A stretch of 11,788 nucleotides of DNA from Lachnospiraceae bacterium UBA1251 (lineage in GTDB: Bacteria > Bacillota > Clostridia > Lachnospirales > Lachnospiraceae), in contig DBVZ01000086.1 of NCBI GenBank assembly GCA_002308255.1, positions 22,594 through 34,381 of the forward strand, read 5' to 3'. A program made the translations under genes and the position numbers. The notes beneath the pieces are model-generated. The model was not told the DNA's origin. It worked only from the letters and a program-made list of their open reading frames with translations, and searched no databases. Shown here in pieces: positions 103-11,311 of the stretch. The stretch's first letter is position 1; each line of letters starts with the position of its first letter.

Positions 103-3100
103 ATGATAGCACCAACCATCGTAATCGGACTCGGAGGAATCGGTTCGGATATCTGCTGCAGAGTATCGCGGCTGGTAAAGGACAAAGAGCAGAGAAGAAG
201 AATCCGCTTCGTCTGCATCGATACGGATATTAACGACCTTACACAGCGGCAGGAAGAAGATCCGAGGCTGATCACGATCCAGACCTCCGCGCCTTACACT
301 GTGGCAAATTATCTGAAGACCAATACGCGGGCTGACGAGAAATGGTTCCCGAAACACAACATTCTTTCGGGAAAGACGCCGACGGAAGGCGCCGGCCAGG
401 TCCGCGCGATCAGCCGTCTCGCCTTTGACGAAGCGGTCCGCGAAGGCCGCATGATGGCACTCACGAAAGCCATTGAGGAGCTGTATTTCCTGGACGGCGC
501 TGCCGAACCGCAGGCGGTCCGCATCATGATCGTCTCGACACTGGCGGGCGGCACGGGTTCCGGTATCGTTCTTCCGGTGGCGCTGTATGTCAGGAACTTC
601 CTGGAGACCCGCTTCCACAAGAGCGCTTCGGTCGTCCGCGGATTCTTCCTGCTGCCGGAGATCATGTTCGGCAACAAGAGCCCGGAGGAGTGCGGAAGCC
701 TTTGCTGCAACGCCTACGCTTCGATCCGTGAACTCGACGCGTTCATGCGCCGCGGCGACGGCGCCCTGGAAGGTCCGAAATATAAAGACCTTTCTCTTGA
801 GCTGCCGGATGTCAGCTCCGGAAGCTATGTCGATTACCACGTCTCCCCGTTCAATTTCTGCTTCCTCTATGACAAGAGGAACACGGACGACAAGCAGCTG
901 ATGAGCTTCGCGGACTACAAGGAGCACGCCGCAAATACGATCTACACGCAGGCGATCAGCGGCATCAGCAACCGCTCGAATTCCAACGAAGACAACACCA
1001 TCAAGCCGCTCGTCAAATCCAACGGCCGCAACCGTTTTGCCGGCGCAGGCTCCTCTCTCCTCAAATATCCGAGGGACAGCGTCCTCCGCTATGTCGCGGG
1101 CAAATGGTGCGTACAGGTTATGGACAAGGAATGGCTCGGCATCGACAAAGCCTACCAGAAATACCTCGCTGACCAGAAGGTCCTGCGCCAGAAGAACCCG
1201 AATCTGAAAGACCAGAGCCTCGCCGAGTTCTATATCGACCATGTAGAAAACGGTGAGAAGGGCAGCTTCGAGGAGCAGATCTACTCGATGTGCACGATCG
1301 TCGCGGAAGACGAGAGAGGAAACGAGGAACGCCTCTCCAAGGTCAGCCAGTACACGACCGCGCTGTCGAACTATATCACGGAACAGCTGAAGAGCGACGC
1401 GGAACTGACCAGCATCGGCGCCGCCTATGAAAATGCCTACGACCGCATCAACAAATCCGTCTCCGGCAGCAAGGAAGACGAGAAGATCGCGACGAAGGAA
1501 TACGCGGATGAAATGGAATCGCTGGCAGGCCTCGGCAAGGCGTACGTCAACGCCGCCACGGCAGCGGGCAACCGCCTCGGCAGAACGCTCGCGATGCAGC
1601 TCTTCCAGGACGAGAAGGATCATACATCCGACCGCAAACCGTACCGCATCGAGCACCACATGCACGATTCGGACGACAAATTCATTCATCCGAACGCAGT
1701 GCGGTATTTCCTGTACAGCGTGCAGAAGGCATTTACCGAAGGCATCGCGGGCGCGACGGAGCAGCTGGACGGCATTCAGCGCCGTGTAGATCCGTTTGAC
1801 GATCCGAATACGCCGGAGAAAGAGACCGGCATCGATGCCATCGAAGCGAACGAGAAGAAGATCAACAGCCGTTTCGGCGGCAAATCCCGCAGAGAGATCC
1901 TCGGAAAACTCGGCAAACAGCACGAGGCGGCGTTCGAGTACGGCACGCTCCTCATCAAGAAGGCGCTGTTCGAGGAAGGACAGAATTATCTCCGTTCGAT
2001 GAGCGACGCGTATGAAAAATTCTATACGAACTTCGACCATTATCTGGAGAGGACCCGCCTCGAGACCGGCGAGATCGAGCGCAAATACGTCAACGGCGAA
2101 GGCAAGGCGACCCGTTATGTCTGTGCGAGTGAAGCGTGCCTTAAGGGAATGCTTGCGGAAATGCCCTGCAGCGGTGAAAATACCAGCGTCAACGGCGATC
2201 TCAGCGCGGCGATCTATCATGAGATGAAGATGTATGCGGTCATGGTGAAAAAGCCGAACGCAAGTCTTTATTTCGAAAAACTGTATAATGACCGGATCAT
2301 GGGATTCTGGGAGGAAAGAGTGCTCGACAGCCATGCCGTCCGCATCAATATGGACGTTCTCACCGCTCTCGAAACGGAAGCGGATTATGAGAGGGAAGAG
2401 GCGATGACCGACGATCAGAAGCGCTACTATGCCGCCGCGGTCCTCAGGGAGGCAGAACGCCTCGCGGCCCCGTTCATCGAGGAGACGATGGGCGAGATCC
2501 GTCATCCGTTCACGATCTGCGCCTACAATCCGAAGGTCATGGGACCGGCGGACAGCACAAGACGCGCGTTCGTCAACAAAAATATCAACGATGCCCTCGG
2601 CGGACAGGCGGACGAGAACGTCAGCGAATACGAGCTCATGGTCTACAAGGCGATCTACAATATCAGCGCCGGTGATCTCGAGCGCTTCCGCGCGCCGGAA
2701 GGCAATAACACGATGGGCGGCGAGTACTATGCCTCCTATGTGGATACGATCCGCCAGCTGGGACCGGATTCCTCGAAGAATAAAGTTCTGACACCCCATA
2801 TCGACCGCCGCTGGCATCTCGTCAAATATATGCCGGATCTCGACGACCGCAACCAGGCTATCCTCGAGGACGAGATGGGCAGAGCGCTTGCGTGGGGACT
2901 GATTACCGGCAAGATCGAGCAGATCCCGCCGAGAGCCGGCGCGGGACAGGAGCATTTCCTGTATCAGCCCAAAGGCCGCAGAAGCAAGGAATTTGTGGTC
3001 TCCAACGGCACGCCGTGCGATGAGCTCTACGAAGTCGTCGACGCTCTGGCAATCAATCCGCCGCAGGTCGCGCAGATCCTCAGGGATTACAACAACACGC

Positions 3101-3669
3101 TCGACCGCGAGAAGAGAGACCGTGTGGAACTGCCGGAGAGCCGCCTGATCAATTCTCTCAACTGGCAGGATCCGGTGGACGTGTTCGGCGAGGAGCCGAG
3201 GCTGCACGCCGGCAAACAGAAAATGTTTGCGACGACCGCGGATCCGGTCCACGAGACCTTCCGCATCAAACAGTTTGCGGATTCGCAGAGAGCGTCCGTT
3301 TTCGACCTCCTGTACTGGATCAAGAACAGCACGCCGGTCAATGAGTACTCCGAGGAGGATAACGACAAGCTGTTCGAGAGCATTTTGAAGATGATCGAGG
3401 ACTATGTCGGCGCATATGTCGGGGAGGCCAAGAAATACGATATCTGCTACAAGATCCTGATCGATCAGTTCATCCTGTTCCTGAACAACCTCATGGATCC
3501 GGCGATCGACAGACCGAAGAACAGACTGTATGATTCGTGCGTGGCGAGCATCCGCGATCTTCTGGAAGAACGTCTGGAAGATCTATATGAGATGGAATCC
3601 GAAAAGACAGGTGTCTTTGACGAACTCTATTCGCAGGCTGTCGCCGCTGCGGAAGCCGCGCAGCAGTAA
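103..3669 (+). CDS. Tubulin/FtsZ-like GTPase (Tubulin_2-type) with long C-terminal extension
   Basis: Cytosolic GTPase of the tubulin/FtsZ superfamily, expected to bind GTP and possibly polymerise; its role here is unknown. The N-terminus has the nucleotide-binding glycine loop VIGLGGIG (residues 7-14) and an IDTD strand end (39-42). The tubulin signature T4 loop AGGTGSG is at residues 148-154. The strand FNFCFLYD (250-257) and RNRFAGAG...YP (about 309-323) fit the later part of the bacterial tubulin-like domain. The core covers roughly the first 350-400 residues. The remaining ~800 residues are charged, mostly helical in appearance, without a recognised domain, and lack membrane segments. 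The start is set by AGGAGG at 90-95, 7 nt before the ATG. Gene 2 follows after 139 nt. The GTPase assignment is strong; the exact equivalent of the T7 catalytic acidic residue could not be placed, so GTP hydrolysis is uncertain. Confidence 0.88.
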   Translation: MIAPTIVIGLGGIGSDICCRVSRLVKDKEQRRRIRFVCIDTDINDLTQRQEEDPRLITIQTSAPYTVANYLKTNTRADEKWFPKHNILSGKTPTEGAGQVRAISRLAFDEAVREGRMMALTKAIEELYFLDGAAEPQAVRIMIVSTLAGGTGSGIVLPVALYVRNFLETRFHKSASVVRGFFLLPEIMFGNKSPEECGSLCCNAYASIRELDAFMRRGDGALEGPKYKDLSLELPDVSSGSYVDYHVSPFNFCFLYDKRNTDDKQLMSFADYKEHAANTIYTQAISGISNRSNSNEDNTIKPLVKSNGRNRFAGAGSSLLKYPRDSVLRYVAGKWCVQVMDKEWLGIDKAYQKYLADQKVLRQKNPNLKDQSLAEFYIDHVENGEKGSFEEQIYSMCTIVAEDERGNEERLSKVSQYTTALSNYITEQLKSDAELTSIGAAYENAYDRINKSVSGSKEDEKIATKEYADEMESLAGLGKAYVNAATAAGNRLGRTLAMQLFQDEKDHTSDRKPYRIEHHMHDSDDKFIHPNAVRYFLYSVQKAFTEGIAGATEQLDGIQRRVDPFDDPNTPEKETGIDAIEANEKKINSRFGGKSRREILGKLGKQHEAAFEYGTLLIKKALFEEGQNYLRSMSDAYEKFYTNFDHYLERTRLETGEIERKYVNGEGKATRYVCASEACLKGMLAEMPCSGENTSVNGDLSAAIYHEMKMYAVMVKKPNASLYFEKLYNDRIMGFWEERVLDSHAVRINMDVLTALETEADYEREEAMTDDQKRYYAAAVLREAERLAAPFIEETMGEIRHPFTICAYNPKVMGPADSTRRAFVNKNINDALGGQADENVSEYELMVYKAIYNISAGDLERFRAPEGNNTMGGEYYASYVDTIRQLGPDSSKNKVLTPHIDRRWHLVKYMPDLDDRNQAILEDEMGRALAWGLITGKIEQIPPRAGAGQEHFLYQPKGRRSKEFVVSNGTPCDELYEVVDALAINPPQVAQILRDYNNTLDREKRDRVELPESRLINSLNWQDPVDVFGEEPRLHAGKQKMFATTADPVHETFRIKQFADSQRASVFDLLYWIKNSTPVNEYSEEDNDKLFESILKMIEDYVGAYVGEAKKYDICYKILIDQFILFLNNLMDPAIDRPKNRLYDSCVASIRDLLEERLEDLYEMESEKTGVFDELYSQAVAAAEAAQQ

Positions 3670-3741
3670 CGCGGTCTTTCCGGTCCGGTGCGCCAAATAA
3701 ACGGGAATGATCCGATACAGCGTTCCGGACCTCATATGACA

Positions 3742-3772
3742 CGGCATGCCGCGCGGAATGCACAGCGTGCCG
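3742..3772 (+). other. Hairpin in the 139-nt gap between genes 1 and 2
   Basis: CGGCATGC (3742-3749) pairs with GCGTGCCG (3765-3772), 8 bp with one G-U pair and a 15-nt loop. A second, longer-range pairing is possible between GGTCCGG (3682-3688) and CCGGACC (3725-3731). Neither is followed by a T-run, so neither looks like an intrinsic terminator. They may set the stoichiometry of gene 1 to gene 2 by protecting or processing the mRNA. The gap otherwise shows no clear promoter. Confidence 0.3.
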
Positions 3773-3794
3773 GAAGTAAGTGCAACCCAGGTTT

Positions 3795-3800
3795 GGAGAC
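3795..3800 (+). promoter_or_regulatory. Ribosome binding site that decides the start of gene 2
   Basis: GGAGAC lies 8 nt before the ATG at 3809. An in-frame ATG at 3746 would add 21 residues, but it sits inside the 3742-3772 hairpin and has no good Shine-Dalgarno. The downstream start is therefore preferred; it opens a natural-looking hydrophobic strand, MLTVIIYK. Confidence 0.7.
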
Positions 3801-3808
3801 TATCGTCT

Positions 3809-5767
3809 ATGCTGACGGTTATTATTTACAAAAAATCCTCACAATATTTTATAGACCGGTACAGGAGCCTGTTCCAACCCTACCTGAGCGCCAAGAAGAT
3901 CGCTTTCTGCTTCTGGGATGAAAACGGCACGGATATCGCCTCCTCATTAGCGACGCTTGCGGACACCGTCCGCGGCGTGCCGAGGTGGAAGGCGATCGTG
4001 GCCCTTCCCCTGACATCGGATATGGAAGAAGCCGCTGTTCAGTGGCGGTACCAGGAAAATCCGTTCGATTACACAGGGAAATATGACGAGATCCCGCAGC
4101 CGGGAGAGGAACCGAAGGTCATGGAGAGCGAAGTGCCGCTCATCCGCCTTGCCCATATGCTGGGCGGGGTCCCCCTTCCGGATCAGAATCTGCCGCCGGA
4201 GGAATACGAGGCGCAGCAGGAGGAATGGGAACGACTGGAAGCGAGGTACAGCTTCGGCTGTGACCGTCCCTCTTTCCTGTACCTGTTCGCTGCCAGGATC
4301 CAGAGGGAAATATCGCTTCCCGACACGACGGACAGGGAGATCATGGAGCGTCATGAGTCGGACAGCTCGATGTTCTGGTACCGCAACCGGTATCCGGCAA
4401 AAGCCCGTTTTATGGTGCAGGACTGCTCCCGTCCGGGGCACGCGCATTTCCGCGAAGACGTCTTCGGTTTCTGGATGACAGTCCTGACGGTCGCGCTCAA
4501 CGATATGCCGACCGGTACGTTTGAAGCATACAAGCTCTATAAAGTGAAGGCGGAAGTTGACAAGAAGACCCTTCACGAGACGTTCAGCGATTATTACAAC
4601 CGGCTGTCCGGCGTGCAGTTCTCGGCGGAAAAACGCATTATCGAGCTCCGCAAGAACACGCACCACACCAGGGAAATGGATGAGCTGCCGCCCTACGAGA
4701 TGCAGATCGACGTCCCGTTTTCCATGGAAAATGAAGAAGCGGCAAAGATCTCTTCCAAAGACATCGGATTTGCGGGCGACTGCCCGGTGAAGGAGGAGGA
4801 ATGGTGGCGCGGCACCGTCTATGAGAGCCGGAGCGCCTTAAGAAAACTGTTCCGGTCCCTGCAGGTCGTGCTGGACCGCTCTTCGATCAGCAGCCGCTTC
4901 AACGCAAAGCTCCTTGAGACCGAGATCCATGAAATGGACGAATATCAGGTCCAGGAGCTCGAAGGGGAGCTGCAGGAGCTGGAGAAGGATATCCTCGTGT
5001 TCAATACCGGCAAAACCCTGCCGATCCGGCAGTTCAACAGTGATCTCGAAGAGGCGGACAAGGCGGCGGTGACTTCCATGAGGAAGAGGATGTCCCGGAG
5101 TCTCACCGTCTGGGCGGGCATTATTATTCTGCTGATCTATCTTGCGGGTTATATTCCGGACATTATCTGGCAGATCCGGAATGATACCCTGGATGGAGAT
5201 TTTGCCGCGCTGATCTTCATCGGGGCGGATCTCCTCACGATCGCGCTGGTGCTCGGACTGTTCTCCTTCCGGTCGGTGATCCGGGCGAAGATACATGATT
5301 ATAACGGCGTCGTGACAAGGATCATGGGGCATATCCGGCAGGCGGGGAAGGTATTTTCCGATTATCTCTCCAAATGCTGCAGCTATATGCGCGGGCAGGG
5401 GATGCTGCAGGCACTCCTCGAGAGGACCATGGTCTCCACGATGAGCATCAAAATGCTGAGCCTCCACAAGGAGAAGCTCGGGGATCAGATGCGCGTGATC
5501 GAGGACTGGCTCGGAGACGCGGATCTCCATGTGCTGCCCGACCGCGGCGAAGCGGGGTACGCCGATTTCAATTTCGAGATCGAACCGCGCAATAACCGGG
5601 AATATCTCATTCATCTCGATTTCTTCGATCTTTCGATCGAGATGGACGACGGGAGCGCGATCCTCGCGCCGTATCCTTTCGTGGATGCGCTGCATGTCCG
5701 CAGGGAATCCCTGTACGAAAAACCTCTGGACGACGAGGAAGACGAGGAAGAAGGTGAGGAAGCATGA
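3809..5767 (+). CDS. Two-helix membrane protein of unknown function, coupled to the DA1-like gene
   Basis: I do not recognise the family. The 652-residue protein has a large N-terminal soluble part (about 1-427). This begins with a strand-rich segment (MLTVIIYK; then FCFWDENGTD) and contains a charged, probably coiled-coil stretch at about 364-396, rich in Glu and Leu. Two membrane helices follow at about 432-453 (AGIIILLIYLAG) and 466-487 (LLTIALVLGLF), joined by a short acidic loop. A C-terminal domain of ~160 residues ends in a very acidic tail (DDEEDEEEGEE). Basic residues before helix 1 (MRKRMSR) and after helix 2 (FRSVIRAK) predict that both soluble parts face the cytosol. Its stop overlaps the next start by ATGA, implying translational coupling and a shared complex with gene 3. 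It could be the membrane anchor or adaptor between the tubulin-like protein and gene 3; this is inference. Confidence 0.85.
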   Translation: MLTVIIYKKSSQYFIDRYRSLFQPYLSAKKIAFCFWDENGTDIASSLATLADTVRGVPRWKAIVALPLTSDMEEAAVQWRYQENPFDYTGKYDEIPQPGEEPKVMESEVPLIRLAHMLGGVPLPDQNLPPEEYEAQQEEWERLEARYSFGCDRPSFLYLFAARIQREISLPDTTDREIMERHESDSSMFWYRNRYPAKARFMVQDCSRPGHAHFREDVFGFWMTVLTVALNDMPTGTFEAYKLYKVKAEVDKKTLHETFSDYYNRLSGVQFSAEKRIIELRKNTHHTREMDELPPYEMQIDVPFSMENEEAAKISSKDIGFAGDCPVKEEEWWRGTVYESRSALRKLFRSLQVVLDRSSISSRFNAKLLETEIHEMDEYQVQELEGELQELEKDILVFNTGKTLPIRQFNSDLEEADKAAVTSMRKRMSRSLTVWAGIIILLIYLAGYIPDIIWQIRNDTLDGDFAALIFIGADLLTIALVLGLFSFRSVIRAKIHDYNGVVTRIMGHIRQAGKVFSDYLSKCCSYMRGQGMLQALLERTMVSTMSIKMLSLHKEKLGDQMRVIEDWLGDADLHVLPDRGEAGYADFNFEIEPRNNREYLIHLDFFDLSIEMDDGSAILAPYPFVDALHVRRESLYEKPLDDEEDEEEGEEA

Positions 5768-8700
5768 CGCTGAATACGAGACAGATCCTGGGCGTTCTGC
5801 TGGCCGCGCTTCCGTTCCTCTTTGTGGCCCTCCGCTCCGGAAAGATCAATTTAAAAAAGACAGAGCGCTCGCATCAGTTCATCCTGCCGATCTTCAGCGT
5901 GGTCTACTCCGCGTACATGATGACGCAGCTCACAAAGCTTACGAACACGCTGGTCCGCCTGATCGGAGCGCTCATTGCCCCGCTCTCCCGGATCCCCGGG
6001 ATCGGGCAGTTCCTGAGCGGCCTTTTCCGCGCGATCTACGCTCTTATGAATATCGGTTTCGGCCTGCAGCTCCTCGTAAATACGGCCGTTATGGCGATCT
6101 ACTGTATCCTGAAGAGGATCCTGCTGCCCGTTATACGGAAATGGTGGAGCAAGTGGAGATGGCTGTACAACCATACCAGCGCGTATTTCTATATTGAGAG
6201 AAAGGAAAGCGCGGCGCTCCGGCAGGAGTATTCCGATCTTCGGAAATACTTTAAGATCGCGTATTACATGGCCGTCTTCCTCGGCTATCTGGACTGCGTC
6301 CTGACGCTGATCCTCTCGTCGAGCGAAGCGTTCCGCTTCCCGTTCTATCCTGTCTTCGGCATCATTGTACTCGGAGAGATCTACTGCTTCCTTGACGGCA
6401 GGACGCCGGACGAGACGGCTGCGGGGCCGGGAACGGAAGATCCCAACATCCCGGATGTGGAATGCGAAGCCGTGATGGAGGAACTCGTGAAGAAGTTCCC
6501 GGACCGCGTTTCCCTGAAAGGCACGCGTCCGAAAATGTCCGCGCCGAGAAGGAAACATGACTGGGCGGAGGAGCTTTCGGCGGGCGACGACCTGGACGAA
6601 GTCGCAGGCACTTATTTCGCGACCCTTGCGGAGGGCGGCGAGAAGATCAATCCGGACTACGTCGAGGTGACAAGGCAGATCCTGCACGATAAAAACGTGC
6701 TGATCTACAATCCTTTCTACAGAGACCTCACCTCGTATCTTCTGCTGCCGATCTTCCATGAGCTGCTCAATAACCGCTCCTGTCTGATCGTGTGCGGAAG
6801 GATCACGGACGAGAAGGACATTATCGACTGGATCACGGGCGGCATCCGCGACGTGACCAACCTGCCGAAGCTCTGGAATATCGCCTCTTTAGAGAGTACG
6901 GGGGCGGAAGCGGACGACATTGACATCGGCGTCCTCGGGTTCCGCAAACTGTATGATCTCGCAGCGATTGCGGCGAACGGGAAGTTCTTTGAGAGAGTAT
7001 CGTTCGTGATCATGCTGGAACCCTCCAATATCCTCGGTACCGGCCAGATGGGCCTGCGCAATGTCGTGCAGTCCTGTGAGAGAGAGACCAAGAAAGTCAC
7101 TTACTGCGCGATCGACCGCAATGCGGACGGTCTTGTCGACGCGCTCAGCCATACGATCCGGCAGAGCGTGACCGAGGTCGTCGCATCGCCCTCGTCCGAA
7201 AGCCCGTACTGCCGCATGTTCTGGAAAGCGGAAGGACCGGGCGTACAGACCCGCATCCTGCCGCGCATCTCCCATTATATGGGACTCGGCGGAGAAGTGG
7301 CGGCGCTCGCGATGAATCTGGGTGTTCAGAACATTCACTGGTACAGCGGAAGCAAGATGCCGCTGCTTGACCTTGGATGGAACATCGAGCAGTATTACGA
7401 ACCGATCTGCCAGTATATCCACTCGCCGCGGGCGCAGGAGGAGATCAAGGCGCGGTTCCATTTCCATGAGAATCTCTGGCAGGCGGAAGCGATGCCGGAT
7501 ACTTTCCTCATGGTGGAAGACGAATTCTGCAATGTTTTCGAGATGGCGAGGACATTTTCAAGCAGGATCGTCCGCAGGGGATTCCTCAACGTACTTGCGG
7601 AATCCTATATGCTTCGCGACTATATGTGCGCGAACAGCGTTCTGTTTACGAATGACAGCAAGGCGATTCCCTCCATCGTGCCGGATTACGCCCGGACGGA
7701 GAGGAATTTCGTCCTTCTGATGCTGATGCTGATGTCGACGCAGCCGATCTATGAGAGTTTCCTTATCAAGGAGCTTGCACTGCACGGCTACGAAGGCCAG
7801 CAAAGTCCGGTGGACCTTTTCCAGGATCTTATCAGGAAACACACCGGAGAATATATCCCGGTGCAGACGATCCACAACGACGCGGTGCTGGGAGGAAGCA
7901 CCTACAGCAGGTTCTCCTACCGCGTGGACCGCTCGGCGGTCGAGTCGGTACTCAATTCCGCCCTCAAGACGGCGCATTATGTTGTTGAAAATGAAGAGAC
8001 GGAAATGTATCCGATGGGCAACCGCCTGATGGACCACATCGAGCAGACGCTGCTGCCGGGACAGTTCTTCAGCTACGACAGCAAGTATTACCAGGTGCGT
8101 TCGATCTCGCCGGCCAACGGTATTATCGTGCGGCGCGCGGCGGATCACATCAATGGGCGTGTGTATTACCGGCAGCTCCGCACCTATCAGGTGAATATAC
8201 GGCACCGGCTGGACGATGCGAGAGACCTGCGGGGCTTTTCGATCGGCAATGCGTTCGCGGATATTGACGTCGCGACGGACGGATACCTTGAGATGAAAGC
8301 GTCCAATCTCCTGACCGATGCGACGGTGGTGCGGCTTGAGAAAGTGCGGAAGCGCTCTGTCGTTTATAAAGAGATCATGGAAGTAAGACTGCCGGATTCG
8401 ACGCCGGAGATCCGCTTCACGATCTGCGTATTGCTCAATGAGCTGCTGAAAACACTCTATCCGAACGAGGCGGGCTATATCGTTGCGGCGGCACCGGACC
8501 TTCCGGAAGACGTGAAGAAGCACGAAGATTATCTGGAGAGGCTCCGTGTGCTCATGCCGGCCCTTTCCGTGGAGGGCGGACAGCCGGACTGCATCTACTT
8601 TATCGAAGACAGCAATATCGATCTCGGGCTGCTCGTATCCATTGACCGCAATTTCCAGCGGATCATGGAGATTATGACCGACTACCTCGACTGGTACCTT

Positions 8701-9834
8701 GATCCGGACCGCAGTGAGGGAACGAAAGCGGTTGACGAGGACAATATTCCGGAAGGAGAGGGCGGTGCCCCGTCGGAAGACAGGACTGCCGTAGAGGAAA
8801 ACACGCCTGCCCGGGAGAGTCAGGAGGCTGTGAAGAACCGGAGCTTTGCCGAACTGGATGTGATGGGGAATACCGGAACACCGGTGGCGGCGGAGACCGT
8901 GGAAAGCATTCTGCGCACGCAGACCGCGAAGGGCGATGTGGACGGCGAGGACGAGGAATCGACGGAGATCGGTGCCGTCAGGATCGAAAAAGCCGTCGAA
9001 TACCTCACTTACGGATACTGCGAAGAGGGTGCGCCCGACTGGCTCGCTCTGGAAGAGACCCTCGAGTACCTGCAGGGCAGACGGTTCGACGACAGCAGCC
9101 TGCACCGTGCCCGCACGAAACCCGCGGGATTCGACGAAGGCAGTGATTACGATCCGAGAACGCCGGGCGTCCACTACTGCGACTTCTGCGCAAAACCGCT
9201 TGAACCGGATCACTTTACGGTCCTTAAAGACGGCAGGGAGCGCTGCCCGGAATGCGGCGCGACCGCGGTAAAGACGCGCAAAGCCTTCAAGAGAGTCTAC
9301 TCGCAGACGCTGGATGAGATGGAACGCGCATTTAATATCAAGATCGACGTTCCGATCAGGATCCGCATGGCGAACGCGAGAAAGGTCAATGAGGAAGAAG
9401 GCGGAAAGTCGACATTTACGCCGACGCCGGCCTTTGACGGACGCGTGCTCGGATATGCGCAGAAGAAGGGCAGCGAATACCTGCTCATGGTCGAGAACGG
9501 CGCGCCCGAATGGAATATGAAGCAGACGCTGGTGCACGAACTGACCCATATCTGGCAGTTTACGCACTGGAATGACAGTCAGGTCGAACATCTCACCAAA
9601 GGAGACCGGGACCTGCACGGCCTTCTTTATGAAGGAATGGCGGTATGGTCCGAAGTGCAGTATCTGGTCGCGATGGGCGAGAAGGAGAAAGCGATCCGCT
9701 ACAAGAGAAACCGCGACTGCGATCCTTCCGTTTACGGTGTCGGCATGGCGCTTTATCTCGGAAAATACCCGGTACAGGAAGTGAGCAGCATTCCCGCGGA
9801 GGAAAGTCCGTTCGGACATTTTCCGCCGGTATGA
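5764..9834 (+). CDS. Membrane-anchored degenerate SF2-helicase-like protein with LIM-like zinc ribbon and DA1-like metallopeptidase
   Basis: Multidomain protein of 1356 residues. Hydrophobic segments lie at about 7-23, 39-56, 88-114, 162-184 and 192-210. Basic stretches at 24-38 and 115-145 (KRILLPVIRKWWSKWRW) predict that everything after residue 210 is cytosolic. Residues ~300-480 follow the order of an SF2 helicase RecA domain without the catalytic residues: NVLIYNPFYRD (311-321) sits where the Walker A should be and FVIMLEP (414-420) where DExH should be. Residues ~760-815 (LLPGQFFSYDSKYYQV) and ~943-980 (CIYFIEDSNIDLGLL) recall the C-terminal part of MrfA/DUF1998-type helicases. An acidic low-complexity linker covers ~980-1070. 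Then come C1139-x2-C1142 and C1161-x2-C1164, and H1258-E-L-T-H1262 with E1290 in YEGMAVW, a gluzincin zinc site. The ribbon-to-peptidase layout resembles plant DA1. The peptidase is confident, DA1 kinship fairly so, the helicase remnant tentative. Confidence 0.85.
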   Translation: MTLNTRQILGVLLAALPFLFVALRSGKINLKKTERSHQFILPIFSVVYSAYMMTQLTKLTNTLVRLIGALIAPLSRIPGIGQFLSGLFRAIYALMNIGFGLQLLVNTAVMAIYCILKRILLPVIRKWWSKWRWLYNHTSAYFYIERKESAALRQEYSDLRKYFKIAYYMAVFLGYLDCVLTLILSSSEAFRFPFYPVFGIIVLGEIYCFLDGRTPDETAAGPGTEDPNIPDVECEAVMEELVKKFPDRVSLKGTRPKMSAPRRKHDWAEELSAGDDLDEVAGTYFATLAEGGEKINPDYVEVTRQILHDKNVLIYNPFYRDLTSYLLLPIFHELLNNRSCLIVCGRITDEKDIIDWITGGIRDVTNLPKLWNIASLESTGAEADDIDIGVLGFRKLYDLAAIAANGKFFERVSFVIMLEPSNILGTGQMGLRNVVQSCERETKKVTYCAIDRNADGLVDALSHTIRQSVTEVVASPSSESPYCRMFWKAEGPGVQTRILPRISHYMGLGGEVAALAMNLGVQNIHWYSGSKMPLLDLGWNIEQYYEPICQYIHSPRAQEEIKARFHFHENLWQAEAMPDTFLMVEDEFCNVFEMARTFSSRIVRRGFLNVLAESYMLRDYMCANSVLFTNDSKAIPSIVPDYARTERNFVLLMLMLMSTQPIYESFLIKELALHGYEGQQSPVDLFQDLIRKHTGEYIPVQTIHNDAVLGGSTYSRFSYRVDRSAVESVLNSALKTAHYVVENEETEMYPMGNRLMDHIEQTLLPGQFFSYDSKYYQVRSISPANGIIVRRAADHINGRVYYRQLRTYQVNIRHRLDDARDLRGFSIGNAFADIDVATDGYLEMKASNLLTDATVVRLEKVRKRSVVYKEIMEVRLPDSTPEIRFTICVLLNELLKTLYPNEAGYIVAAAPDLPEDVKKHEDYLERLRVLMPALSVEGGQPDCIYFIEDSNIDLGLLVSIDRNFQRIMEIMTDYLDWYLDPDRSEGTKAVDEDNIPEGEGGAPSEDRTAVEENTPARESQEAVKNRSFAELDVMGNTGTPVAAETVESILRTQTAKGDVDGEDEESTEIGAVRIEKAVEYLTYGYCEEGAPDWLALEETLEYLQGRRFDDSSLHRARTKPAGFDEGSDYDPRTPGVHYCDFCAKPLEPDHFTVLKDGRERCPECGATAVKTRKAFKRVYSQTLDEMERAFNIKIDVPIRIRMANARKVNEEEGGKSTFTPTPAFDGRVLGYAQKKGSEYLLMVENGAPEWNMKQTLVHELTHIWQFTHWNDSQVEHLTKGDRDLHGLLYEGMAVWSEVQYLVAMGEKEKAIRYKRNRDCDPSVYGVGMALYLGKYPVQEVSSIPAEESPFGHFPPV

Positions 9835-9940: not shown

Positions 9941-11311
9941 ATGAAAACAAACAGAAGACCCGGTGTAAAATTAATGACGGTACTCCTGATCCTGCTGATC
10001 CTGGCAGGACTGGGAGCGTTCGTCTATCTTTTCACGGAAAAAACCCCGGAGGAGGAGCAGACGGCGCAGACGGCGGGAACAGCGGCTGCTCCGACACAGA
10101 CGCCTCCGCCTTCCCTTTCGCAGCTTTATGAAGAGGAGCTCGAAAAGCTCGAGGAAGAGAACAGGCCCGCGCCGACCGGAACGCCTCTGCAGCTTCCGAC
10201 GTCCGCGCCTTCGGAAGAAGAGGAAGAGGAAAGTGCAGTTCCTTCCCCTGCACCGGCAGCAACGCCCGCCGCTGCGGAAGAAGAGCAGGCAGAGGCAGAA
10301 CTTTACTATTATTACAGCCTTCTTGATGACGAAGAAAAGGCCGTTTACGACCAGATCCTGGAAGGGATCGGGAACCGCAGCGATCTGTTCGGGGTAAACA
10401 CGGACATGGACGCGGACCGACTTTCGCAGATCTCCCATTTTGTGTTCTGCGACCACCCGGAACTGTTCTGGTTCAAGGGCGCCTATCACTATACGGATTA
10501 CGGCGATCATTACAACATGGAATACACCTATACCCTGACGCAGGAGGAAATCGACGCACGGCAGGCGGAGATCACCGCTGCGACGGAAGAATTTCTTGCC
10601 GGGGTGGACGAAGACCTTTCCGATTATGAGAAGATCAGAATGGTCTACGATTATCTGTGCTTTAACACGGTTTATCAGAACTCGCCGGACGATCAGAATA
10701 TTTACAGCACTTTTGTCTCCCGTGAAACGGTCTGCGAAGGATATGCCCGCGGTGCGGAATACCTGCTGCAGCAGCTGGGGATCCCGTGTATCCTGATCGA
10801 AGGGAACGCCAACGATGACTCGCACGCCTGGAACGCGGTCCTGTGCGACGGCAAATGGTACGGTATGGATGTTACCTGGGGCGATATGGATTACGGCATG
10901 AAGGGATCGGTCATGAATGCGCCGGAAGAACTGGAAGCCAACTATGCGTTCCTGCTGTCGGACGACGAGGAATTCTATACGCAGCAGGGCCGTGTGCCTG
11001 ATGCGGAGTTCTTTACCGGTGTCCTGCCCGCCTGCACGGATCCTTCCCTGCGGTATTATCCGTCGCACGGACTCTTCTATGAAGACACGGAAGATGCCTG
11101 GAACACAGTACAGGAGAGTCTTGACGGCGGAGAAACGGTCTTTTCCTGCCAGTTCGCCAGTGAGGAGCTCCGGGACGCATTTCTCGCAGACATTGCCGAT
11201 GACCGATATTCGGATATGGTTCTCAAGACGACGGGAGCGCAGCAGATCCATACGGGATACTGCTACAGCGAGGAGGGAAATACGATCGATATCTGGTATG
11301 AGGCTGCATGA
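9941..11311 (+). CDS. Membrane-anchored extracellular transglutaminase-like protein
   Basis: A 456-residue member of the transglutaminase-like cysteine protease-fold superfamily. These catalyse amide cross-linking or, often in bacteria, peptide or amide hydrolysis; the substrate here is unknown. A basic N-terminus (MKTNRRPGVK) precedes one hydrophobic segment (about 12-31) with no lipobox cysteine, giving an uncleaved anchor or signal peptide. A Pro/Ala/Glu-rich spacer (33-120) would hold the catalytic domain away from the membrane. The catalytic triad is visible: Cys265 in ETVCEGYARG, His295 in DDSHAWNAV, and Asp310 in WYGMDVTWGD. The ~100 residues after the domain are unassigned. The start codon has only a weak Shine-Dalgarno; an in-frame TAA at 9923-9925 rules out a much earlier start, and Met12 lies inside the hydrophobic segment. 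It lies 106 nt after the DA1-like gene and may be co-transcribed. Confidence 0.88.
   Translation: MKTNRRPGVKLMTVLLILLILAGLGAFVYLFTEKTPEEEQTAQTAGTAAAPTQTPPPSLSQLYEEELEKLEEENRPAPTGTPLQLPTSAPSEEEEEESAVPSPAPAATPAAAEEEQAEAELYYYYSLLDDEEKAVYDQILEGIGNRSDLFGVNTDMDADRLSQISHFVFCDHPELFWFKGAYHYTDYGDHYNMEYTYTLTQEEIDARQAEITAATEEFLAGVDEDLSDYEKIRMVYDYLCFNTVYQNSPDDQNIYSTFVSRETVCEGYARGAEYLLQQLGIPCILIEGNANDDSHAWNAVLCDGKWYGMDVTWGDMDYGMKGSVMNAPEELEANYAFLLSDDEEFYTQQGRVPDAEFFTGVLPACTDPSLRYYPSHGLFYEDTEDAWNTVQESLDGGETVFSCQFASEELRDAFLADIADDRYSDMVLKTTGAQQIHTGYCYSEEGNTIDIWYEAA

Follow-up and report, generated by a model that had tools for sequence, protein, structure and literature searches.

The locus described here raises the question of what a bacterial tubulin-like GTPase might be doing beside a membrane-bound, helicase-like protein that ends in a zinc peptidase. 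The window, a stretch of 11,788 nucleotides from the draft genome of Lachnospiraceae bacterium UBA1251 (G000:C148:22594-34381, on a 43-kb contig; 1.85 Mb in 152 contigs, 69.7% complete), holds four long open reading frames (ORFs), all on the + strand. A sequence-only reading had taken the first three, a tubulin-like GTPase (gene 1), a two-helix membrane protein (gene 2) and a membrane-tethered pseudo-helicase with a peptidase end (gene 3), for a unit in which the GTPase controls an intracellular protease. These ORFs (103-3669, 3746-5767 and 5764-9834) are present as claimed, genes 2 and 3 share an ATGA, and genes 1 to 3 are almost certainly one real unit. The proposed unit was incomplete, because an exported vWA-type gene lies directly upstream of gene 1, outside the window on the same contig (L002:9699-12506, 935 amino acids [aa]), giving at least four genes. 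We favour, tentatively and as rather less than an even bet, the reading that the four products form a trans-envelope surveillance complex for immune or stress signalling, its cytosolic protease being gated by the assembly of the tubulin.

Gene order and distribution

Scanning species genomes with a gene 2 alignment returned 21 loci, 20 with the unit and one with a remnant (L025), and the cassette loci compared here number 28 (the window, L005-L024, L036, L043, L044, L045, L050, L054 and L055). Counted only on contigs long enough to show the genes in question, the vWA-type gene comes before the tubulin gene in 24 of 24 cases, among them L036, where other ORFs lie between, and L042, an additional contig end with vWA and tubulin genes. 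The tubulin gene precedes gene 2 at 26/26 loci and gene 2 precedes gene 3 at 24/24, gene 2 being only positional in two loci of both counts (L036 and L050), where the substitute has no profile match to gene 2, a similar length and a helix pair at a similar place. Since this order holds where gene 2 identity drops to 21%, the unit is not a chance arrangement. Pairwise identities over 14 loci, compared without regard to species relationships, also covary, most closely for genes 2 and 3 (Pearson 0.97, Spearman 0.71), followed by genes 1 and 3 (0.87 and 0.76) and genes 1 and 2 (0.81 and 0.49).

The unit is rare and patchily distributed in some gut Clostridia. An even sample of 391 genomes of the class has Tubulin_2 in 10, gene 3 in six and gene 2 in four; all four genomes with gene 2 also carry genes 1 and 3 (in G071 over three contigs), and the two with gene 3 and no gene 2 match are G066, which has the L036 form, and G379. 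Gene 3 was not found in 15 other same-family genomes listed within this sample. A second sample, overlapping the first, comprises 250 genomes of the family of G394 (a Faecalicatena genome), probably also the family of the window's genome, as a genome of the window's family in the first sample (G087) recurs in the second with identical coordinates (G584). Of these 250, 12 have Tubulin_2 and five have gene 3, in each case on a contig that also carries Tubulin_2; of five gene 2 matches one (G438) was judged false, and the gene 2 present in G641 went undetected. Tubulin_2 stands without genes 2 and 3 in 4/10 class genomes and 7/12 family genomes, G129 being counted neither way as its contig ends after the vWA-type gene and gene 1. 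Three such loci scanned with Pfam (L039, L040 and L041) all have DO-GTPase2, with GAP1 domains in L041 and, below cut-off, in L040, and with a GAP1 candidate in L039. Because genes 2 and 3 were not found apart from Tubulin_2, contig ends and a fragment in G379 aside, they are tied to one tubulin subfamily, and homologues of the three genes are not mostly apart from each other in these samples. Loss has also occurred: the upstream flank of L025 matches that of L022 over 4.3 kb at 88% DNA identity, the two loci have a downstream gene in common, and gene 2 survives in L025 only in pieces (L025:10187-10942).

Domain make-up of the unit

The tubulin signature noticed in gene 1 holds up, with a match to Pfam Tubulin_2 (PF13809) at E 5.8e-56 over residues 6-340 and no variation in the GGTGSG columns of 19/19 aligned sequences. 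The upstream protein has a signal-like N-terminus, a metal-ion-dependent adhesion site (MIDAS)-type motif, with DxSxS in 15/15 aligned sequences, and a single C-terminal helix. It is labelled vWA because of that motif together with weak Pfam matches (E 0.085 in the window's own upstream copy and 0.024 in L017), and its signal-like start, motif and lone C-terminal helix make it likely to be an outside sensor. At L036:3488-6468, the first of the extra ORFs between the vWA-type and tubulin genes itself has an exported vWA-like start (VVSVVYDDF).

Gene 2 probably starts at 3809, where its relatives start (P0001 = 652 aa), and the hydrophobicity scan recovers both of its proposed membrane helices. 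It has no Pfam match over cut-off, and none of its 48 homologues has a precomputed Pfam domain. The predicted structure (predicted local distance difference test [pLDDT] score 84.3) consists of an N-terminal alpha/beta domain, then helices, then the membrane helix pair, and has no Foldseek match at E <= 0.001. It also gives a weak tubulin-like signal, which is at background level and without sequence support.

Gene 3 likewise has no Pfam match over cut-off, and the proposal that it is a pseudo-helicase scaffold is supported by its predicted fold. The best match is MrfA (6znp_A, Foldseek E 1.3e-22 over 816 alignment columns, the next family reaching 8e-8), and the alignment with 6znp_B covers residues ~231-1107. 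The RecA1-RecA2-canopy fold of the MrfA/YprA family is thus present, with the Walker A and motif II sequences of that family not kept; GxGK[TS] is found in 0/65 alignment rows. Gene 3 is therefore very probably a motor-dead MrfA-type body. The proposed membrane helices are also there, four in the window by a simple scan and five over threshold in the relative L054, from which a fifth may be placed near residues 38-57. One member, P0167, carries an S8 protease and a Big_2 domain ahead of the first helix, which suggests that the N-terminus lies outside; with five helices, as in L054, the tail would then lie inside, and we regard a cytosolic tail as fairly likely. In L007 and L022, gene 3 is split into two ORFs with the break towards the acidic linker, which may be a real interruption or an assembly error.

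Behind the disordered linker sit four invariant cysteines, DUF1998 not being one of the profiles that 34 members match, and then the zinc peptidase site noted earlier, whose H-E-x-x-H columns are intact and invariant in 65 rows. The enzyme is probably active. DA1-type peptidases have a cysteine motif followed by an HExxH peptidase, as gene 3 does, and the domain had been called DA1-like. The resemblance is one of layout only: no DA1 profile, which we take to be PF12315, is among the 13 families matched by the 34 members at E <= 0.05, and the nearest matches, all weak, are DUF6782 (31/34), DUF6055 (21/34) and BSP (15/34). With regard to the LIM domain expected of a DA1 peptidase, a four-Cys motif is all that was seen. 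The output end of gene 3 varies, being absent in L036, which lacks both the four-Cys motif and the peptidase, single, doubled in P0161, which has two copies of both, or fused in L045:6018-8201, where a transglutaminase follows the peptidase in one frame with no membrane helix between (the start of this locus is cut by the contig end).

Table. Features of the window, in window positions
Feature	Positions	Strand	Basis or remark
Gene 1: Tubulin_2 (FtsZl1-type) GTPase, 1188 aa	103..3669	+	Pfam PF13809
GTP-binding loop AGGTGSG, gene 1 residues 148-154	544..564	+	GGTGSG columns invariant, 19/19
Gene 2: two-helix membrane protein	3746..5767	+	673-aa ORF; probable true start 3809, giving 652 aa
Membrane helix pair of gene 2, at 452-470 and 488-506 in the numbering of the 673-aa ORF	5099..5263	+	Hydrophobicity scan
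Gene 3 (1356 aa): pseudo-helicase tethered to the membrane and ending in a zinc peptidase	5764..9834	+	Overlaps gene 2 at ATGA
Membrane domain at the N-terminus of gene 3, with helices at about residues 3-21, 94-112, 165-183, 192-210	5770..6393	+	Hydrophobicity scan
Helicase core of two RecA-like domains, lacking the ATP-binding motif; residues ~263-635	6550..7668	+
NPFYRD where a Walker A loop would be	6709..6726	+	Follows strand 95-98 and precedes helix 102-118 in the model
EPS where helicase motif II would be	7018..7026	+	E-P-S invariant in 65 rows; end of model strand 195-201
Canopy-like region, counterpart of the OB/connector/DUF1998 part of MrfA, residues ~636-978	7669..8697	+	Foldseek alignment; boundaries inferred from model
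Low-confidence acidic linker	8722..8985	+	pLDDT under 50, model residues 770-857
Four-Cys motif CxxC...CxxC (C1139, C1142, C1161, C1164), probably zinc-binding	9178..9255	+	65/65 rows
Zinc peptidase domain	9271..9831	+	Weak DUF6782, DUF6055, BSP matches
HELTH zinc-binding site, residues 1258-1262	9535..9549	+	H-E-x-x-H columns invariant, 65 rows
E1290 of EGMAxW, likely third zinc ligand	9631..9633	+	EGMAxW in 65/65 rows
Gene 4: transglutaminase-like, N-terminal helix, optional partner	9941..11311	+	PF01841, 3.1e-11

Neighbouring genes and possible roles

We propose that genes 1 to 3 make up the cytosolic and membrane part of a four-gene complex of vWA-type protein, Tubulin_2, gene 2 and gene 3. 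Some five helices would anchor gene 3 in the membrane and leave its long C-terminal part in the cytosol; its MrfA/YprA-type body, having lost the ATP-binding motif, would now serve as a scaffold, and the four-Cys motif and probably active peptidase would be the output. Gene 2 would link gene 3 to the tubulin. The trigger might be a signal arriving at the envelope or else a ligand bound by the dead helicase; either might alter the assembly of the tubulin-like GTPase at the membrane, and this change might release or cluster the peptidase, which would then cleave a cytosolic target. That the tubulin controls the peptidase is the rather doubtful step in this scheme, and its topology, physical association, defence role and substrate are all put forward here as inferences. 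What the sequences do show is the linkage, the domains, the missing ATP-binding motif, the conserved peptidase site and the TIR enrichment.

An immune or stress role, which we place only just short of evenly balanced, is suggested by the rarity of the unit, its loss in a relative, its variable output end and the genes near it. Flanking genes are mostly unlike between loci. Of 20 TIR-bearing genomes, 13 have a TIR_2 gene no more than 20 kb from the unit, where 1.06 are expected under uniform placement (P 1.5e-13); this P value is indicative and too small because TIR genes cluster together and the first batch of genomes was drawn up after TIR genes had already been seen in several of its loci. 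That batch contributes 11/13 genomes (0.77 expected). Around other Tubulin_2 genes the count is 0/7 TIR-bearing control genomes (0.18 expected), with lengths assumed for the G533 and G564 contigs and rough intervals otherwise; regardless of these, no TIR gene lies on the tubulin contig. The test leaves out G035 and G405 (no TIR), G071 (cassette on three contigs) and the controls G207, G444 and G613 (no TIR), and scores as absent TIR genes on the cassette contig at ~36 kb (G391) and ~41 kb (G403). On the window's own contig, ~18 kb upstream of gene 1 (L061:3819-5910), a TIR ORF (3819-4415) is overlapped by an ORF (4279-5910) with a hydrophobic segment and leucine-rich repeats; the two together have a Toll-like domain set, with an N in the overlap and the frames separate.

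Channel-like membrane proteins lie near 9/28 loci (the window contig, L006, L008, L012, L018, L019, L050, L054 and L055) and also near the L025 remnant, a count taken from flanks of unequal extent and without a background rate. A RyR domain (PF02026) is matched at 7.8e-8 in L055 and, below cut-off, at 3.9e-5 in L054, and some of these neighbours have weak TrkA-N, Castor/Pollux or Slo-RCK matches. RyR-family domains of phage proteins bind or cleave cyclic ADP-ribose-type immune signals, according to the portion available of a 2026 preprint (PMC13232231). Related membrane proteins, some TrkA-N-like or RyR-like, are found at L055:16241-18163, L054:17925-19667, L004:6560-8566, L018:16424-18178 and L049:4643-6421, and L018, L054 and L055 have a second channel-like family alongside (weak Castor/Pollux or Slo-RCK matches). 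A more elaborate version of the favoured reading is a membrane alarm platform, in which the exported vWA-type sensor and the tubulin-like GTPase would control a dead-helicase scaffold that releases the cytosolic zinc protease, the helicase body would sense a nucleic acid or nucleotide signal rather than act as a motor, and TIR enzymes would provide a second arm by making signals derived from nicotinamide adenine dinucleotide (NAD) that are read by RyR-domain TrkA/RCK-type channels of the same island. We consider this version unlikely as a whole.

Besides the limits just given for the TIR, channel and covariation counts, several observations weigh against the favoured surveillance complex. The second TIR batch is weaker (2/7 genomes, 0.29 expected, P 0.03), G035 has no TIR gene and G066 has none nearby. 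PADLOC matches none of genes 1 to 3 and gives two weak matches to gene 4, its best match among 34 gene 3 members being E 0.038, and neither plasmids nor phages, on which many defence systems are carried, gave a match to the unit. The gene 3 match in G379 is a 222-aa peptidase fragment on a 7.7-kb contig in a genome with no Tubulin_2 match, and the weakest identity covariation is that between the vWA-type gene and gene 2 (Pearson 0.79, Spearman 0.34). Finally, the transglutaminase fusion in L045 has no intervening helix, yet stand-alone gene 4 looks exported, which fits a cytosolic gene 3 tail badly.

A different role, as proposed for FtsZl1, would be that of a machine remodelling the membrane or envelope, with the tubulin-like protein as scaffold, the vWA-type protein and optional transglutaminase acting on the wall, and the peptidase trimming a component. 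The Tubulin_2 and vWA core is the same as that of FtsZl1 systems in the main text of PMC2875224, there are hydrophobic helices in the vWA-type protein, gene 2 and gene 3, and the transglutaminase-like gene 4 is present at 8/28 cassette loci, downstream in the window, L005, L008, L009, L012 and L050, upstream in L055, and fused behind gene 3 in L045. We nevertheless think remodelling unlikely, as a unit so rare and patchy (gene 2 in 4/391 genomes) and lost in L025 is unlike a core envelope function, and the TIR enrichment would be left unexplained.

Rather improbable, too, is a stress-signalling relay with no defence role, in which an outside signal crosses the membrane and the cytosolic peptidase cuts a regulator. 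The joining of a subtilase-type S8 domain to gene 3 in P0167 and the intact HExxH site would suit such a relay, as would the STAS/phosphotransferase and HD genes upstream of the unit on its own contig. These upstream genes are, however, not common to other loci (phmmer at E <= 1e-4 gives one weak match to the kinase gene, in L006, and none in the remaining gene 2-scan loci), and the TIR and RyR neighbours favour NAD-type immune signalling. The window's own contig also encodes a 1450-aa protein (L002:666-5018) that matches a protein kinase domain (1.7e-17) and, weakly and close to the C-terminus, a Card1-like endonuclease.

The cassette might instead position or gate an EssC/FtsK-type export ATPase as an accessory module of type VII-like secretion, which we judge very improbable. 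In L006:15910-21097 (Faecalibacterium sp. An122), an EssC-like ATPase (753 bits, cut-off 778), a 90-aa ORF (seen in L047) and a WXG100 protein come right after gene 3; FtsK/EccC-like ATPases follow gene 3 in L017, L019 and L022, with short pieces in L020 and L055; and in G035 an EssC that passes the cut-off shares the contig of the cassette, ~10 kb past the vWA-type gene. Such genes, two of them merely short pieces, nevertheless adjoin just 6/28 cassette loci. EssC exceeds the cut-off in 2/19 carrier genomes, in one of them (G394) on a different contig, the window's own genome, at its stated completeness of 69.7%, has no EssC match at E <= 1e-10, and YukC/EssB was found in none of the 19. An ATPase of the L017/L019 family also adjoins another tubulin system (L057:952-4290, E 1.2e-58), and tubulin is absent from the main text of a type VII survey (PMC11217815). 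The other genes of the L057 system look DO-GTPase/GAP1-type by eye. The product of L022:20885-21925, whose N-terminus is helical and, by eye, WXG-like and which ends in a WHH/colicin-type nuclease domain, is likely a secreted interbacterial toxin. There is virtually no chance that the genes are unrelated neighbours or an assembly artefact of this fragmented draft genome, a reading refuted by a gene order kept across many independent assemblies with median identities of 26-48%, two of them with isolate or strain names (L006 and L008).

Comparison with known systems

Type VII secretion (EssC/WXG100) touches the unit through neighbours in a few loci, outside its conserved part. Of the two components of Thoeris-type TIR defence, a TIR gene and a ThsA-type effector, the analysis covered the first, with the TIR neighbours described above. 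The pairing of vWA and Tubulin_2 is the FtsZl1 core described by Makarova and Koonin in 2010 (PMC2875224), and since this core is published, in the text available of that paper and of PMC7159879, the tubulin part of the unit is not new. As in FtsZl1, a Tubulin_2 protein with a long C-terminal extension stands beside a MIDAS vWA protein with signal or membrane segments; in contrast to what the main text describes, the unit adds gene 2 and the pseudo-helicase/peptidase and has no OmpA-type or GTPase gene among its scanned neighbours. That main text names no helicase, peptidase or protease, and families A1-A2 and B1-B9 of its Additional File 6, which lie outside this comparison, may include genes 2 and 3. 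The GAP1-N2/DO-GTPase conflict systems of Kaur et al. 2020 (PMC7159879, in the text available) share a firmicute tubulin and a membrane-anchored extracellular vWA protein. They differ in that genes 2 and 3 were not found in their loci and in that none of the seven TIR-bearing controls has TIR within 20 kb. Among those neighbours of the unit that were scanned with Pfam, which are not all of them, there is no DO-GTPase or GAP1, whereas the same scan finds DO-GTPase2 in L039-L041.

Gene 3 resembles in overall fold the MrfA/YprA (DUF1998) helicases, including members from DISARM, Druantia and ARMADA as given in the main text of PMC12458937, which makes no mention of a peptidase, a protease or transmembrane segments. 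It differs in having no ATP-binding motif, membrane helices in front, and a peptidase behind, where MrfA/YprA relatives have a nuclease. In keeping with the earlier view that no described system joins such parts through a helicase-like scaffold, a tubulin with a pseudo-helicase or this kind of metallopeptidase is not described in the available text of PMC2875224, PMC7159879, PMC9871819, PMC12458937 or PMC11217815. The pseudo-MrfA/peptidase partner, gene 2 and the TIR/RyR neighbourhood appear to be new, Additional File 6 aside.

That Tubulin_2 proteins make up membrane machines has been a prediction since 2010 (PMC2875224, main text), and the available text of PMC2875224, PMC7159879 and PMC9871819 names no protease or other tested output for firmicute tubulin systems. 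The unit offers a zinc peptidase whose site is intact as a candidate output, and a scaffold, an MrfA-type body without the ATP-binding motif, also in cultured gut bacteria; because both are concrete, a role of bacterial tubulins outside division becomes testable, and the TIR/RyR neighbourhood hints at which challenge to try first. It is possible that the unit is a bacterial complex for defence or alarm that has so far gone unrecognised. Through it a membrane-bound, motor-dead, peptidase-tailed branch joins a helicase family whose other links are with DNA repair and phage defence.

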